Shown here in pieces: positions 746 through 52,092 of a stretch of DNA of 64,000 nt; positions within the stretch are counted from its first letter, which is position 1, and the number at the start of each line of letters is the position of its first letter. Source of the stretch: Desulfovibrio aminophilus DSM 12254 (lineage in GTDB: Bacteria > Desulfobacterota > Desulfovibrionia > Desulfovibrionales > Desulfovibrionaceae). The stretch spans positions 248,001-312,000 of the forward strand of contig NZ_AUMA01000006.1 of assembly GCF_000422565.1 (NCBI RefSeq), written 5' to 3'. The notes beneath the pieces were generated by a model. The model had not been told where the DNA came from, ran no database searches, and was given only the letters and a program-made list of their open reading frames with translations. Position numbers and translations under genes: made by a program.

Positions 746-1192
746 TCAGCGTTCCTCGAAGATGAGGGCCCGGTTCGGACAGGCGGCCACGCAAGCGGGA
801 CCGCCCTCGCGGTCCTTGCAGAGGTCGCACTTGACGATCTTGTTCAGGGTGGGATGTCGCTGGATCGCTCCGTAGGGGCAGGCCATGAGGCAGGACCAGC
901 AGCCCACGCATTTGTCCATGTCGTAGGTGGTGGTTCCGGTCTCGGGATCCTTTTGCAGGGCCCCGGAGATGCAGGCGGCCACGCAGGAGGGGTCGTCGCA
1001 GTGGCGGCAGGACAGGGCCACGCAGGTCGGGCCGTTTTCCTGGAAGCGCTTGCAGCTCTTGAGACCGTCCTCCAGGCGTTCCTTGGTGTAGGCGATGATC
1101 AGATCCTTGCTCTTGGAATGCACGGTGATGCAGGCCAGCTCGCAGAGGTGGCAGCCGATGCAGAATTCCTTGTTCGGATAGACGCGTTTCAT
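746..1192 (-). CDS. four-cluster 4Fe-4S ferredoxin (HycB/CooF-like electron carrier)
   Basis: A 148-residue iron-sulfur protein with sixteen cysteines in four groups, enough for four [4Fe-4S] clusters: CIGCHLCELAC near the N-terminus, a CRHCDDPSC-type group in the middle, CVGCWSCLMACP, and a C-terminal CDLC...CVAACP group. This spacing is that of the HycB/CooF/DmsB family of electron-transfer subunits. There is no signal peptide, so it is cytoplasmic. It sits between the glutamate synthase FMN subunit (10 bases upstream) and the FAD oxidoreductase (19 bases downstream), so it most likely shuttles electrons between them. Assignment to the family is firm; the physiological partner is inferred. 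Confidence 0.9.
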   Translation of the reverse strand: MKRVYPNKEFCIGCHLCELACITVHSKSKDLIIAYTKERLEDGLKSCKRFQENGPTCVALSCRHCDDPSCVAACISGALQKDPETGTTTYDMDKCVGCWSCLMACPYGAIQRHPTLNKIVKCDLCKDREGGPACVAACPNRALIFEER

Positions 1193-1202
1193 GACGTTCC
1201 CC

Positions 1203-2747
1203 CTAGCGACCAGCGTGCTTCACGCCCAGGATGTCCATCTCCGTGGAGGAAAGACCCACGGCTCGGAGCTTGTCGCGGTTGCCGCGCAGGCTCTCGATGG
1301 AGTTCAGGCCCATGCCGCCAAGCATCTCCTCGATCTCGTGGCCCCAGGCCCGGACCAGATTGGCCATCTTTTTGGCCGCGATGTCCGGGTTCTGGCGCTT
1401 GGAGAGTTTGGCGTCGTTGGTGGCGATGCCCCAGGGACACTTGCCGGTGTAGCACTTGCCGCAGAGCGTGCAGCCCACGGCCAGCAGCGCGGCGGTGGCG
1501 ATGTAGCAGGCGTCCGCGCCCAGGGCGATGGCCTTGACCACGTCGGCGCTGCAGCGTGTGCCGCCCGCGGCTACGATGGAGGCCCGGTTGCGGATGCCTT
1601 CGTCGCGCAGGCGCTGATCCACGGCGGCGATGGCCAGTTCGATGGGGATGCCGACGTTGTCGCGGATCATGGCCGGAGCCGCGCCCGTGCCGCCCCGTAT
1701 GCCGTCGATGGCCACGATGTCGGCCCCGGCGCGCACGATGCCCGAGGCGATGGCGGCCACGTTGTGCACGGCCGCGATCTTCACCGAAACCGGCACCCGG
1801 TAGCGTGAGGCTTCCTTGAGGGCGAAGATGAGTTGATGCAGATCCTCGATGGAGTAGATGTCGTGGTGCGGGGCGGGCGAGATGGCGTCCGAACCCACCG
1901 GGATCATGCGCGTCTCGGAGACCTTCTCGTTGATTTTTTCGCCCGGCAGATGGCCGCCGATGCCCGGTTTGGCTCCCTGGCCGATCTTGATCTCGATGCC
2001 CGCTCCGGCGTTCAGGTAGTCGGGGTCCACGCCGAAGCGGCCCGAGGCCACCTGGACGATGGTGTTCTTTCCATACTGATAGAGCGACTTGTGCAGTCCG
2101 CCCTCGCCGGTGTTGTAACAGATGCCCAGTTCCGTGGCGGCCCGGGCCATGGCCACGTGCAGGTTGAAGTTGATCGAGCCGAAGCTCATGGCCGAGAACA
2201 TGATCGGGTAGTTCAGTTCGATCTGCGGCCCGAGCTTGGTGGACAGCTTGGGTTTGGCCTTTTTGCCTTTGCCCGTGGTGGTGAACTCCACCCGATCCGG
2301 CTTGGAGCCGAGGAAGGTCTTCAGCTCCATGGGCTCGCGCAGGGGGTCGATGGAGGGGTTCGTGACCTGGCTTGCGTCCAGGAGGAGCTTGTCCCAGTAG
2401 ACCGGGATGTCCACGGGCGAGCCCATGCCCGCCAGCAGGACGCCGCCGGTGTCGGCTTGCTTGTAGATATTTTTGAGGAAGACAGGTCGCCAGCAGGCAT
2501 TGGGGCGGAACTCGGACTGGTTGAGCCGGATGCAGAGGGCTCCGGTGGGACAAAGGGCTTCGCAGCGATGGCAGCCGACGCACTTGGTGTTGTCGTGGCG
2601 AACCATTTGCCGCGCCTCGTCCCAGTAATGGGCCTCATAGGCGCATTGTCGGATGCAGACCTTGCAGTTGATGCACAGGTCTCTGTCCCGCACGATTCGG
2701 TAGTCGTGGTAGTTCTTGTTGATTGGTTGGAACAGCAAGTCCGCCAC
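1203..2747 (-). CDS. gltB: glutamate synthase FMN/Fe-S subunit, ferredoxin-fused archaeal-type
   Basis: A 514-residue protein carrying two N-terminal 4Fe-4S motifs (CINCKVCIRQC and CVGCHRCEALCP, about residues 27-70). These are followed by the FMN-binding synthase domain of glutamate synthase and a 3Fe-4S motif CTLCGKCYTGKCP near residue 430. The N-terminal glutaminase domain and C-terminal structural domain of the large bacterial GltB are absent, as in archaeal-type split enzymes where the amidotransferase is a separate protein. The start is GTG, chosen because GGAGCGAG precedes it and the ferredoxin domain begins at once. It would convert 2-oxoglutarate plus ammonia from glutamine to glutamate. 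It is first in an operon with the ferredoxin and FAD oxidoreductase. No amidotransferase gene lies in the window; one may lie beyond the left edge. Confidence 0.88.
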   Translation of the reverse strand: MADLLFQPINKNYHDYRIVRDRDLCINCKVCIRQCAYEAHYWDEARQMVRHDNTKCVGCHRCEALCPTGALCIRLNQSEFRPNACWRPVFLKNIYKQADTGGVLLAGMGSPVDIPVYWDKLLLDASQVTNPSIDPLREPMELKTFLGSKPDRVEFTTTGKGKKAKPKLSTKLGPQIELNYPIMFSAMSFGSINFNLHVAMARAATELGICYNTGEGGLHKSLYQYGKNTIVQVASGRFGVDPDYLNAGAGIEIKIGQGAKPGIGGHLPGEKINEKVSETRMIPVGSDAISPAPHHDIYSIEDLHQLIFALKEASRYRVPVSVKIAAVHNVAAIASGIVRAGADIVAIDGIRGGTGAAPAMIRDNVGIPIELAIAAVDQRLRDEGIRNRASIVAAGGTRCSADVVKAIALGADACYIATAALLAVGCTLCGKCYTGKCPWGIATNDAKLSKRQNPDIAAKKMANLVRAWGHEIEEMLGGMGLNSIESLRGNRDKLRAVGLSSTEMDILGVKHAGR

Positions 2748-48555: not shown

Positions 48556-49482
48556 TTAGGCGAAGGCCTTCTCGAAGGGAGGCACGACCTGCTTCTTGCG
48601 GCTCATGACCTTGTCCAACCAGACGCTCTTGGCGTCGGGCTTCACGCCGAAGGCCTTCTCGATGACGGAGGCGTCATCGGAGACGTAGAGCATCTTGGAG
48701 CCTTCCTTCATGATGTCGGTGAGGAGCAGGAACACGCTGTGACGGCCGCCGTCCTCGCCCTTGACCTTCTGGATCTCGGCGTAGAGAGCTTCCTCGTAGG
48801 GGGCCAGGATGCCCAGATCCACCACTTCCAGCTGGCCGATGCCGACCTTCTTGCCGCTCATGTTGAAGTCCTTGTAGTCGCGGAAGACCAAGTCCCGCAT
48901 GGGGGTGCCTTCCACGGCGGACTTCACTTTGAACATCTCCATGCCCAGGGCCATGACGTCGGCCACGCCCGCGAGTTTGGCCAGCTTCTCGACGGCCTTC
49001 TTGTCCTTCTCGGTGCAGGTCGGGGACTTGAACATGACGGTGTCGGACAGGATGGCGCAGAGCATGATTCCGGCGATGGGCTTGGGAACGGCCACGCCGA
49101 AGTAGTCGTACATGGCGGCGACCACGGTGCAGGAGCAGCCCACGGGCCAGACCCACATTTCAAGCGGGTTGGAGGTGGTCACGTCGCCCAATTTGTGGTG
49201 GTCGACCACGTACTGGACTTCAGCCTTGTCGAAGTCGGCGGGCAACTGAGCCTTGTCGGTGGTGTCCACCAGGGCGATCTTTTTGCCGGCGGCCTCGGTC
49301 AACAGCTCGGGGGCCTTCACGCCGAACTTGTTCAGCACGAACTCGGACTCGGGCGGGCAGGCGCCCTGCGCGGCGGCGATGAACTCTCCGCCATAGGCCT
49401 TGGCGGCCAGGTCGGCGAAAGCGATGGAAGCGGCGATGGTGTCGGTGTCGGGATTCTTGTGACCGATAACGTAAATAGCCAT
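48556..49482 (-). CDS. ppaC: manganese-dependent inorganic pyrophosphatase
   Basis: A 308-residue family-II pyrophosphatase of the DHH superfamily. The metal ligands are visible in YVIGHKNPDTD, IALVDTTDK and YVVDHHKLGD, and the C-terminal DHHA2 domain has SRKKQVVPPFEKA. It hydrolyses pyrophosphate; in sulfate reducers this pulls the ATP-sulfurylase reaction forward (known physiology, here inferred). I start at ATG 49482, behind GAGGAGGATG; upstream in-frame codons do not belong to the family. Confidence 0.95.
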   Translation of the reverse strand: MAIYVIGHKNPDTDTIAASIAFADLAAKAYGGEFIAAAQGACPPESEFVLNKFGVKAPELLTEAAGKKIALVDTTDKAQLPADFDKAEVQYVVDHHKLGDVTTSNPLEMWVWPVGCSCTVVAAMYDYFGVAVPKPIAGIMLCAILSDTVMFKSPTCTEKDKKAVEKLAKLAGVADVMALGMEMFKVKSAVEGTPMRDLVFRDYKDFNMSGKKVGIGQLEVVDLGILAPYEEALYAEIQKVKGEDGGRHSVFLLLTDIMKEGSKMLYVSDDASVIEKAFGVKPDAKSVWLDKVMSRKKQVVPPFEKAFA

Positions 49483-49585: not shown

Positions 49586-50289
49586 TCAGAAAATCCCGGC
49601 GAAGGAGAAAAGTATGACCAGAACCGCCCCGGCGGCGAACAGGGCCTGGGCCTTGCGTAATCGCAGGGAGAGCACCCCGCCAAGTCCGGCGGCCAGGAAC
49701 AACGGGGTCCAGCTCAGCCGTGACGTGGCCAGTTGCGGCCCGAAGCGCAGCAGGCAAAGGTCCGTGAGCACGGCCAAGGCCAGGATGCTGGAAAAGAAGA
49801 ACAGCCAGGAAAAAAGCGCTGACGTGCGCAACGCCCGAAGAACCAGCCGGGGAGGCAGGTCCGGGTCGGCGGAATGCCGGGCCCACTGGAGAATGGCGCT
49901 ATAGCTCCGGTTCTGCCATTCGCGCAGCGCGCCTTCCAGGCGGGCGCCCAGCCAGGAAAGCGGCATGGTCAAGACGAGCGGCACGGCGATCTGGGCTGGA
50001 TGGGTCAGACCGAAATGCGTGACAAGCGCCAGGGCGGCTGTGGTCGAGGCGGCAAGATGCGGGGGAATGTATGTTCCGGCCGGAATGGCGTCGAGCCAGA
50101 AAAGTTCATAGAAGACGGCAACGGCCAGGGAGGTGCTCCAGTCACCTCCAAAGAGGCTCCAGAGAAAACCGATGGCCAGGGGGCGTTCAACGAGCCCCAG
50201 GTTCAAGCTGGAGCGACAGAGCCCGAGGAGGACAAAAAAAAACCGACCGCGCTGAACCAGGCGAGGCTGCCGAGAGTGAAGTCCATCAT
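49586..50289 (-). CDS. PTS mannose-family EIIC component, interrupted by a -1 frameshift
   Basis: The frame opened at ATG 50289 (overlapping the EIIB stop, ATGA) encodes MMDFTLGSLAWFSAVGFF and ends at TGA 50203-50205 after 28 codons. The -1 frame continues unbroken from the nine-T run with VLLGLCRSSLNLGLVERP and carries the EIIC body to 49586, including YELFWLDAIPAGTYIPP and about five more membrane spans. A -1 slip gives a 234-residue protein of normal size. A start at TTG 50206 would lose the first transmembrane helix. It follows EIIB; EIID is absent. It may be intact through slippage, a sequencing error, or a recent pseudogene. Confidence 0.65.
50234..50242 (-). other. nine-base homopolymer (A9; T9 in the gene) at the EIIC frame break
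   Basis: In the mRNA the zero-frame reading GGU UUU UUU UUG contains the heptamer U UUU UUU, a canonical -1 slippery arrangement, and the long run also favours transcriptional slippage. The two frames of the EIIC gene join exactly here. Confidence 0.7.
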
Positions 50290-50762
50290 TTGAACCTCGC
50301 TTGCACGGGGTCGTTGGGAACGCAGCGGAAGTCCAGGCTTACCCCATGTTGGGAAAAAAAGCGCAAGCAGGACTCGTCGTCGGTGGAGAGGGCCACGCTG
50401 GGCGATATTTGGCGCCGACCCGGCTTGTAGTGGATGTTGCCGACATTGAGGCTCTCGAACTGGAATCCGCGCTCGAAGGCCCGACGGGCGTCGGCGCAGG
50501 ATGAGAAGAGCACCAGCGCGGCGAGGGGGTGGCCGGACATGGCCTGGACCAGAGCCAACTGGGTGCGTTCCACATGCACAAAAAGGCTGGTGGTGTTTTG
50601 GGGGATGGCCAGGGACATGATTTCCTGCTGGATGCTGTCGCCGGCCACTTCGTCATTGGCCACGATGATCGTGGAGGCTCCGGTATAAGGGAGCCACGCT
50701 TCAATGACCTGGCCGTGAATCAGCCGGTTGTCGATGCGCACCCAGAGGGATTCCAAGGACAT
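50286..50762 (-). CDS. PTS mannose/fructose/sorbose-family EIIB component
   Basis: A 158-residue EIIB of the mannose family. The phosphorylated histidine is in VRIDNRLIHGQVIEAW near the N-terminus, and VANDEVAGD follows. I start at ATG 50762, three bases past the EIIA stop, because the conserved domain begins there; the long open frame upstream is the shadow of EIIA. It would pass phosphate from EIIA to a sugar or to a regulator. Neither HPr nor EI is in the window. Confidence 0.92.
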   Translation of the reverse strand: MSLESLWVRIDNRLIHGQVIEAWLPYTGASTIIVANDEVAGDSIQQEIMSLAIPQNTTSLFVHVERTQLALVQAMSGHPLAALVLFSSCADARRAFERGFQFESLNVGNIHYKPGRRQISPSVALSTDDESCLRFFSQHGVSLDFRCVPNDPVQARFK

Positions 50763-50764
50763 GT

Positions 50765-51205
50765 CTAGCCTTCCGCGCGGTTGCGGCGCAGGATCTCCCC
50801 GGCCACGACGATGCCCTGCTGCCCGGCCTTCTTTGCCTGCGCCGAGAGTTCCGCCAGGGGTTGGTTCCGGCTTTGGAGCACCTTGAGGAGCATGGGCAGG
50901 TTCACGCCGGTGATGACTTCCAGTGCCGCCGACTTGCACAGGGACAGAGACAGGGTGGTGGGCGTACCGCCGAAGAGATCGGTCATGACCAACACGCCGG
51001 CGCCTTGATCCGTGGCCGACACGGCGGCTTTGATGCCCTCCACCAGTTCTTCCATGCCCGCCGAGGCGGCCATGCTCACGGCTCGGCACCCTTCCTGGGG
51101 GCCGAGGACCAGAGAGGCCGCCTCCAACAGGGTCTCACCGAAGTTGCCGTGGGTGACCAGCACCACTCCGATGTGCTTTTCCTCAATCCGCTCGTTGTTG
51201 GCCAT
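50765..51205 (-). CDS. PTS mannose-family EIIA component
   Basis: A 146-residue EIIA-Man domain protein. The phosphorylatable histidine is in VVLVTHGNFGETL near residue 16 and VMTDLFGGTPTT is the second family block. A TTG nine bases earlier overlaps the rapZ stop; ATG 51205 is used here. It lies between rapZ and EIIB. In related bacteria such PTS modules often act in regulation rather than uptake. Confidence 0.92.
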   Translation of the reverse strand: MANNERIEEKHIGVVLVTHGNFGETLLEAASLVLGPQEGCRAVSMAASAGMEELVEGIKAAVSATDQGAGVLVMTDLFGGTPTTLSLSLCKSAALEVITGVNLPMLLKVLQSRNQPLAELSAQAKKAGQQGIVVAGEILRRNRAEG

Positions 51206-51210
51206 GTCGC

Positions 51211-52092
51211 TCAACCCAGTTCAAGGTGTCGATGTTCCAGGGTCACGGCGTATCCGGTGCGCCGAAGTGCTTCGCAGACCAGTTCGGCTACCGCCACAGA
51301 GCGATGGCGGCCGCCGGTGCAGCCCAGGGCAAGGGTCACGCGATAGCGTCCCTCGGCCAGGTACAAGGGCAGGAGATAGGAGAGAAAGTCCAAGAACTTA
51401 CTCCGGAACGTCGCCCCAGGGTCATTGGCCAGAACGTAGTCCGCGATGATTGTGTCCTTGCCGGACAGGGGCCGGAGGTTCTCGTCGAAATAGGGGTTGG
51501 GCAAAAAACGCAGATCGAAAAGCAGATCCGATTCGATGGGGACGCCGTACTTGAAGCCGAAGGAGATGATGTGGACCCGCAGCACACCCACTTCCTGCTC
51601 CAGCGAGGTCCACTTCTCCTGCAGGGTCCGGCGAAGGTCGTGAATGGAATAATTGGTGGTGTCGATCACCAGGTCGGCCCGCTTGCGCAGAGGGTCCAGG
51701 AGCACCTTCTCAGTCTCCAAGGCCTGCTCCAGGCCGAGGCTCCGGCTTTCCAGGGGATGCGGTCGGCGGGTGGTGGCGTAGCGTCGCACCAGTTCGGACA
51801 GCCTGGCCTCCAGAAAGACGATGTGCGTCCGGACGCCCTGTTTCTTCAATTCTCCGAAAGCCTTGCGCCACTCCTCGGGAAAGTCCATCTGGCGCAGATC
51901 CAGTCCCAGCACCAGACCCCGGTGCTTGCTGTCCTGCTCACGGAAGAGACTCACCAGCTTGGGCGTCAGGCTTGCGGGCAGGCCGTCGACGACGAAGAAG
52001 CCCAGATCCTCGAAGACCTTGAGGGCCGTGCTCTTGCCCGAGCCCGAGAGACCCGAGACCACGATGACCGAGAAGCTTCGGGTATCCCCCAC
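51211..52092 (-). CDS. rapZ: RNase adapter/nucleotide-binding protein RapZ (YvcJ)
   Basis: A 293-residue P-loop protein. Walker A is SGLSGSGKSTALK, a second nucleotide motif is GLDLRQMDF, and the C-terminal domain has the conserved ALGCTGGRHRSV. In E. coli RapZ steers small-RNA control of glucosamine-6-phosphate synthase; in other phyla the role is open. The start is GTG 52092. It is sandwiched between ptsN and EIIA, the frequent rpoN-hpf-ptsN-rapZ arrangement. Confidence 0.94.
   Translation of the reverse strand: MGDTRSFSVIVVSGLSGSGKSTALKVFEDLGFFVVDGLPASLTPKLVSLFREQDSKHRGLVLGLDLRQMDFPEEWRKAFGELKKQGVRTHIVFLEARLSELVRRYATTRRPHPLESRSLGLEQALETEKVLLDPLRKRADLVIDTTNYSIHDLRRTLQEKWTSLEQEVGVLRVHIISFGFKYGVPIESDLLFDLRFLPNPYFDENLRPLSGKDTIIADYVLANDPGATFRSKFLDFLSYLLPLYLAEGRYRVTLALGCTGGRHRSVAVAELVCEALRRTGYAVTLEHRHLELG

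Follow-up and report, generated by a model that had tools for sequence, protein, structure and literature searches.

The locus examined here raises the question of whether a gene that is interrupted at a homopolymeric run is broken, or whether its product is made by slippage at that run. On the minus strand of the window, i.e. the whole 64,000 nucleotide stretch of DNA that was analysed, the gene for the EIIB subunit of a mannose/sorbose-type phosphotransferase system (PTS) is followed by the sequence ATGATGG (50289-50283), sixteen zero-frame codons, a run of nine T residues (T9; 50234-50242) with a G flanking it on either side, and a TGA stop codon (50205-50203). The zero-frame part of the EIIC gene (50203..50289, minus strand; ATG 50289 or ATG 50286) encodes 28 residues, incorporating the hydrophobic beginning of a first helix, and ends at this TGA. 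The -1-frame part (49586..50242, minus strand), which matches the EII-Sor family (PF03609), is open from the first T of the run (50242) to 49586 and encodes 218 residues followed by a stop codon. The first ATG, GTG or TTG codon past the upstream stop in this EIIC frame is TTG 50206, which lies downstream of the T9. An earlier note had described an EIIC gene split at a nine-base homopolymer, a full-length protein of 234 residues and a U_UUU_UUU heptamer in the right phase for -1 slippage. All three claims held: the frames, the TGA and the T9 coordinates were confirmed, the joined EIIC comprises sixteen zero-frame residues plus 218, and the T9 also contains the heptamer (T1-T7) in the correct phase for a ribosomal -1 shift.

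The -1-frame product matches the PF03609 profile over residues 5-107 of 218 (32.5 bits; cut-off 26.3), and its membership of the mannose/sorbose-type PTS EIIC family is shown on this basis, while a role in sugar transport and phosphorylation together with an EIID subunit is putative. Comparison of the EIIC family profile with solved structures retrieved 7dyr and 6k1h (both E 0.005). A structure predicted without the first-helix half has a pLDDT of 80.8, with residues 1-13 below 50, and the best five of 241 matches in a fold search are chains of mannose PTS proteins, but these matches are weak (E 0.03-0.5; TM about 0.5). Escherichia coli ManY (PDB 6k1h, 7dyr) and the Listeria monocytogenes mannose PTS (7xtg) share with the window's EIIC the family, the probable fold and the EIIA and EIIB operon partners. 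Neither of their EIICs is known to be split between frames, whereas the window's EIIC is split and has its EIID at another locus.

EIIC is the last gene in the order rpoN-hpf-ptsN-rapZ-EIIA-EIIB-EIIC. The EIIB gene (50286..50762, minus strand; ATG at 50762) was identified by PF03830 (E 1.2e-43, obtained with a slightly longer segment, 50286-50777), and its TGA stop codon (50288-50286) overlaps the EIIC start codons. It is preceded by genes for EIIA-Man (PF03610; 50765..51214, minus strand; start TTG 51214 or ATG 51205), RapZ (51211..52092, minus strand) and a PtsN-like EIIA (PF00359; 52100..52549, minus strand), the last of which scores 95 bits against TIGR01419, below the cut-off of 138.7. 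The next gene downstream of EIIC encodes a manganese-dependent inorganic pyrophosphatase (ppaC; PRK05427.1, 412 bits, cut-off 283; 48556..49482, minus strand).

Gene neighbourhoods were compared in twenty larger stretches from relatives, ten with an unsplit and ten with a split EIIC, some of which were truncated by contig ends. The row rapZ-EIIA-EIIB-EIIC is present in 20/20 stretches, hpf and rpoN lie upstream in 19/20 and ptsN in 14/20, in split and unsplit species alike, and ppaC is found downstream in 10/20. Both hpf and rpoN were not found in L217 despite 6.2 kb of upstream sequence, and tblastn did not find a ptsN homologue between hpf and rapZ in L217 (genus g2), L219 and L220 (g54), L222 (g56), or L224 and L229 (g52). 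It is possible that ptsN has been lost from, or has moved away from, the locus in these lineages. The EIID gene of the window's genome is located on another contig (G000:C5:195237), adjoining a frame which, by eye, we take to be HPr-like. Partner subunits for EIIC thus exist, with EIIA and EIIB in the operon and EIID elsewhere. Using this EIID as query, none was found near EIIC in any of the twenty larger stretches at E 1e-4 (0/20), with the caveat that a diverged EIID could escape detection. An EIID gene beside EIIC was considered as the cause of site loss in the unsplit species and was rejected, there being no difference in this respect between split and unsplit species.

The search for EIIC homologues gave a match in 49 of 59 relatives and in 252 of the 348 genomes searched within the order; a re-search to place the weaker matches succeeded in 64/64. 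The order, one of sulfate-reducing bacteria, is inferred to be the Desulfovibrionales on the basis of seven named Desulfovibrio/Solidesulfovibrio records. The junction was read in 162 of the 252 genomes, chosen for genus spread and supplemented with automatically returned loci, which cover 47 of the 49 matching genera and six families. One locus (L086, genome G016), where the contig ends before the junction, and repeat loci from any one genome were left out. When loci were classed by frames alone, with start codons sought 20-90 nt upstream and the run ignored, start codons were present only in the zero frame in 133/162 genomes (39 genera), and the run is exactly T9 in 133/133 of these. Start codons were restricted to the EIIC frame in 11/162 genomes (T9 in 1/11, L088) and occurred in both frames in 18/162 (T9 in 16/18). 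In fifteen loci of the latter group T9 occupies the same codon, in L113 it lies a single base further along, and L009 and L084 lack it. The sixteen T9 loci of this group were counted as split using the run itself, while L009 and L084 were counted as unsplit; that 16/149 split loci have start codons in both frames is a weak point of the classification.

On this count EIIC is split at T9 in 149/162 genomes, in 43/47 genera and in all six families, with 148 loci in the standard phase, while a single open frame is found in 13/162. T9 at the same codon likewise occurs in 149/162 genomes, a set which includes L088, where one frame is open nonetheless. The base after the run is G in 146 and A in three of the 149 T9 loci, and in 148/148 standard-phase split genomes T1 is preceded, at a distance of 29-62 nt, by a start codon in the zero frame (search window 28-62 nt). 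The T9 loci span 26-72 % G+C, and T9 occurs in 7/7 named records, one of which (L032) shares the junction of G001, as well as in a sister genome with 93 % identity. In L113 (genome G200, 65 % complete) the T9 lies one base on, in another codon phase, and by eye the gene is still split, the run length having been kept although the phase has moved. A search of both strands of the 3.42-Mb genome of the window returned ten separate runs of at least nine T (14 overlapping matches), the others being mostly intergenic or near gene starts or ends (by eye; incomplete reading). The T9 at EIIC exceeds chance, as such runs are rare in the genome yet this one occupies the same codon in 149/162 genomes. An A9 run is present elsewhere in the window's genome (L191, 1501-1509), where it lies in frame within an hsdS-like open reading frame (1093-2337, plus strand) which, recognised by eye, we take to encode a restriction specificity subunit. 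This A9 is a possible candidate for slippage or phase variation.

The two halves of the gene were further compared for coding constraint by means of substitution counts in 51 disjoint same-genus pairs, using the twelve codons before and the fifty codons after the T9, given that G+C by codon position yielded only a weak frame signal. Before the run, the zero frame shows 103 synonymous and 168 non-synonymous codon changes, and the EIIC frame 24 and 243, respectively. After the run, the EIIC frame shows 767 synonymous and 347 non-synonymous changes, and the zero frame 130 and 994. Both frames are thus under coding selection, with the switch at the run. The zero-frame stretch is also hydrophobic: over 148 loci its mean Kyte-Doolittle value is 1.16, while the other frames give -0.05 and -0.44. 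A pseudogene or an error would not produce constraint in different frames on either side of the T9, and the EIIC gene is not broken; that it is functional is inferred from sequence alone, without RNA or protein data.

As a T9 suits both RNA polymerase and the ribosome, features needed by only one of these were sought. A ribosomal -1 site needs T1-T7, usually together with a helper element. Among the loci split by frames alone, runs of seven or eight T were not found (0/133), and the third Phe codon at the run, its final T being silent, reads TTT in 133/133. Elsewhere in the EIIC genes TTT accounts for 1244/2275 Phe codons (54.7 %), and for 64/107 and 62/110 codons in two other conserved Phe columns; this comparison was counted on 151 loci, two T10 loci included. 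If genera are assumed to be independent, the chance of TTT in all 39 genera is approximately 1e-10. Across the EIIC coding sequences searched (162 loci; about 104.6 kb), no other run of nine or more T or A occurs, although T6, T7 and T8 are seen elsewhere 168, 51 and 27 times, and nine is inferred to be a run length that is otherwise avoided in these genes. In many bacteria, selection against slippage likewise becomes apparent once a run reaches nine A or T (PMC1088944), and seven or more T are enough for the E. coli polymerase to slip, with T preferred to A (PMC6260861).

Signals that could assist a ribosomal shift were sparse. In 42 genomes, one per genus, the mean folding z-score is -0.06 for the stretch downstream of the T9 and 0.09 for that upstream, with control values of -0.18 and -0.23, and no conserved stem-loop was found near the run. 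Stretches with z below -2 number 5/42 downstream and 3/42 upstream, against 1/42 in each of two controls, and Shine-Dalgarno-like words of 4-5 nt occur within 20 nt upstream in 10/148 split loci, against 0/148 in one control window. Ribosomal stimulators are not a conserved feature of the site in the genomes examined. That T8 and T9 are always kept, though the heptamer needs T1-T7 only, points to transcriptional slippage. Of the two mechanisms that the earlier note had left side by side, slippage of the RNA polymerase is thus the likelier, on sequence evidence only, and a ribosomal share is not excluded.

The thirteen unsplit loci (L009, L014, L079, L084, L088, L105, L106, L111, L112, L143, L144, L150 and L157) include seven with six T or fewer, three with T8, one with T9 and two with T10, so that the run differs from nine in 12/13. 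Relatives with an open frame, which the earlier note had named as a refuting case, do therefore exist (13/162), but they are scattered and apparently independent. On a tree of the EIICs (162 loci, first three residues omitted, L113 unscored) the unsplit state requires ten changes, at least nine of them by well-supported branches; the tree was constructed by a quick method, its branches are long and many of its forks are unresolved, and the count is accordingly rough. Both T10 loci (L143 and L144, genus g52) have one open frame and are apparently recent escapes from the split state, but as their genomes are only 79 % and 74 % complete an error in run length cannot be excluded. Beyond the order, a phylum sample gave matches in 111/395 genomes, sixteen of them in the window's family, and fourteen of the 95 others were read. 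None of these fourteen EIICs is split (0/14), each has an EIIC-frame start codon, and none has an A/T run of seven or more within 60 nt (0/14). In the simplest history, which is inferred and for which the number is rough, the split would have arisen once, at the base of the order, and been escaped about ten times. The split is dispensable, given that 13/162 genomes manage without it.

Several other explanations can be weighed against slippage by the RNA polymerase. Programmed -1 ribosomal frameshifting on U_UUU_UUU would give an identical 234-residue protein, and is supported by the presence of the heptamer in phase, as part of the T9, at every standard-phase split locus, and in phase at T3-T9 in the shifted locus L113. 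The heptamer is a known shift site, though a weak one, being listed as less shift-prone than A_AAA_AAG (PMC5009743), and a few loci do have Shine-Dalgarno-like words or local structure. However, ribosomal shifting leaves the constant T8 and T9 unexplained, above all the silent wobble T9 (133/133), and lacks both a conserved stem-loop and more than occasional Shine-Dalgarno-like words (10/148); it is considered unlikely as the main route. Re-initiation at TTG 50206, which overlaps the zero-frame TGA in the window's genome, would yield a 206-residue EIIC without the first helix. This TTG is not conserved, being CTG in the sister genome, and re-initiation would explain neither the T9 nor the zero-frame constraint that precedes it, so that it can be all but dismissed.

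A pseudogene, or a sequencing or assembly error in the window's genome, would fit the location of the break, a homopolymer being the usual signature of such errors. Against it stand the identical break in 149/162 genomes, the T9 in 7/7 named records and in the 93 %-identical sister genome, and the purifying pattern in either half, which leave it practically no room. The broken gene that the earlier note had offered as its alternative has thus failed, as neither a sequencing error nor a strain-specific mutation is compatible with the conserved split. Phase variation at the DNA level, in which the tract would change length during replication and toggle EIIC on and off, finds some support in the T10 and open frame of L143 and L144. 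It would be expected to leave several lengths and phases, whereas the formally "off" length of nine is present in 149/162 genomes at 26-72 % G+C, and it appears very improbable; one genome per species was used, and within-species variation is not covered by this evidence.

The explanation that we consider likely is that EIIC is expressed by programmed slippage at the T9, with the slippage itself, its transcriptional route and a role in dosage all being inferred in the absence of RNA or protein data. RNA polymerase would realign on the nine T within the codons of the first helix, giving some transcripts in which the run is one U longer, or two U shorter. Ribosomes that have initiated at the EIIB stop codon, in the zero frame, would run on into the EIIC frame, and slipped transcripts would give a membrane subunit of 234 (or 233) residues, while unslipped transcripts would give a dead-end peptide of 28 residues. 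The supply of EIIC would then be a set fraction of that of its operon partners EIIA and EIIB. As EIID, the partner of EIIC, is expressed elsewhere, such an arrangement may serve to set EIIC below its soluble partners. In unslipped messages some 600 nt would go untranslated, and transcription further downstream could also be reduced as a result. The "switch", or regulated control, suggested in the earlier note goes beyond the evidence, and a fixed fraction is the simpler reading. The bolder reading, that slippage is itself controlled and varies with cell state (e.g. UTP level or elongation rate), is unlikely; if true, the supply of EIIC, and hence the phosphorylation of the PTS proteins around rpoN, would follow nucleotide or energy status, and the site would constitute an order-wide gene-dosage device.

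Programmed transcriptional realignment is a known kind of mechanism, and what would be notable here is its breadth, its occurrence in a PTS permease and the requirement of slippage for the whole protein. Genes expressed in this way have a run of about nine or more A/T at the frame junction, and a published criterion requires that non-identical homologues share both the run and the ORF organisation (PMC1088944); EIIC satisfies both conditions, the latter in 43/47 genera. As in EIIC, a homopolymer run in Shigella mxiE (for which T runs of more than eight are cited; PMC3711429) and spa13 (PMC5009743) connects a first, shorter frame with the one needed for the functional product. These are plasmid-borne type III secretion genes with experimentally proven slippage, whereas EIIC is a PTS permease gene kept across an order, without experiment. 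Efficiencies of 15-55 % are quoted for the Shigella genes (PMC4256274). The A9 of Thermus dnaX and the two-ORF dnaX of Chlorobi, with nine- and ten-base A runs (PMC1088944, PMC3711429), are lineage-conserved in a cellular housekeeping gene. EIIC resembles them in having a long, lineage-conserved run in a cellular gene, but of T rather than A, and while slippage in Thermus dnaX gives a shorter second product, in EIIC it would give the whole protein. In Citrobacter tssM1 and Yersinia tssM3 A runs are involved, and the prematurely ended tssM1 frame is restored at about 20-25 % (PMC4256274); these are restricted to few species, in contrast to the one T9 in 43 genera for EIIC. No report of slippage or frameshifting in this gene was found in the part of the literature searched. 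Phosphotransferase, Desulfovibrio, sorbose and mannose are absent from the main text of a 2013 GeneTack survey (PMC3711429), in the supplement of which the gene could sit unnamed, and from the part examined of a 2016 review (PMC5009743; supplement excluded), and a 2005 survey of 9A/9T runs (PMC1088944; supplement excluded) does not mention Desulfovibrio, phosphotransferase or PTS.

To our knowledge no programmed slippage site has previously been described in a PTS permease and, if the explanation is true, the T9 of EIIC would be among the most broadly conserved sites of programmed slippage in a chromosomal gene. Gene callers would probably annotate EIIC as a frameshifted or truncated gene in the majority of species of the order, although this is an inference. 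The pure T9 permits a clean test of transcriptional versus ribosomal slippage, and the 149 species with a split gene, together with the thirteen which are naturally unsplit, provide material for asking why the site is kept.
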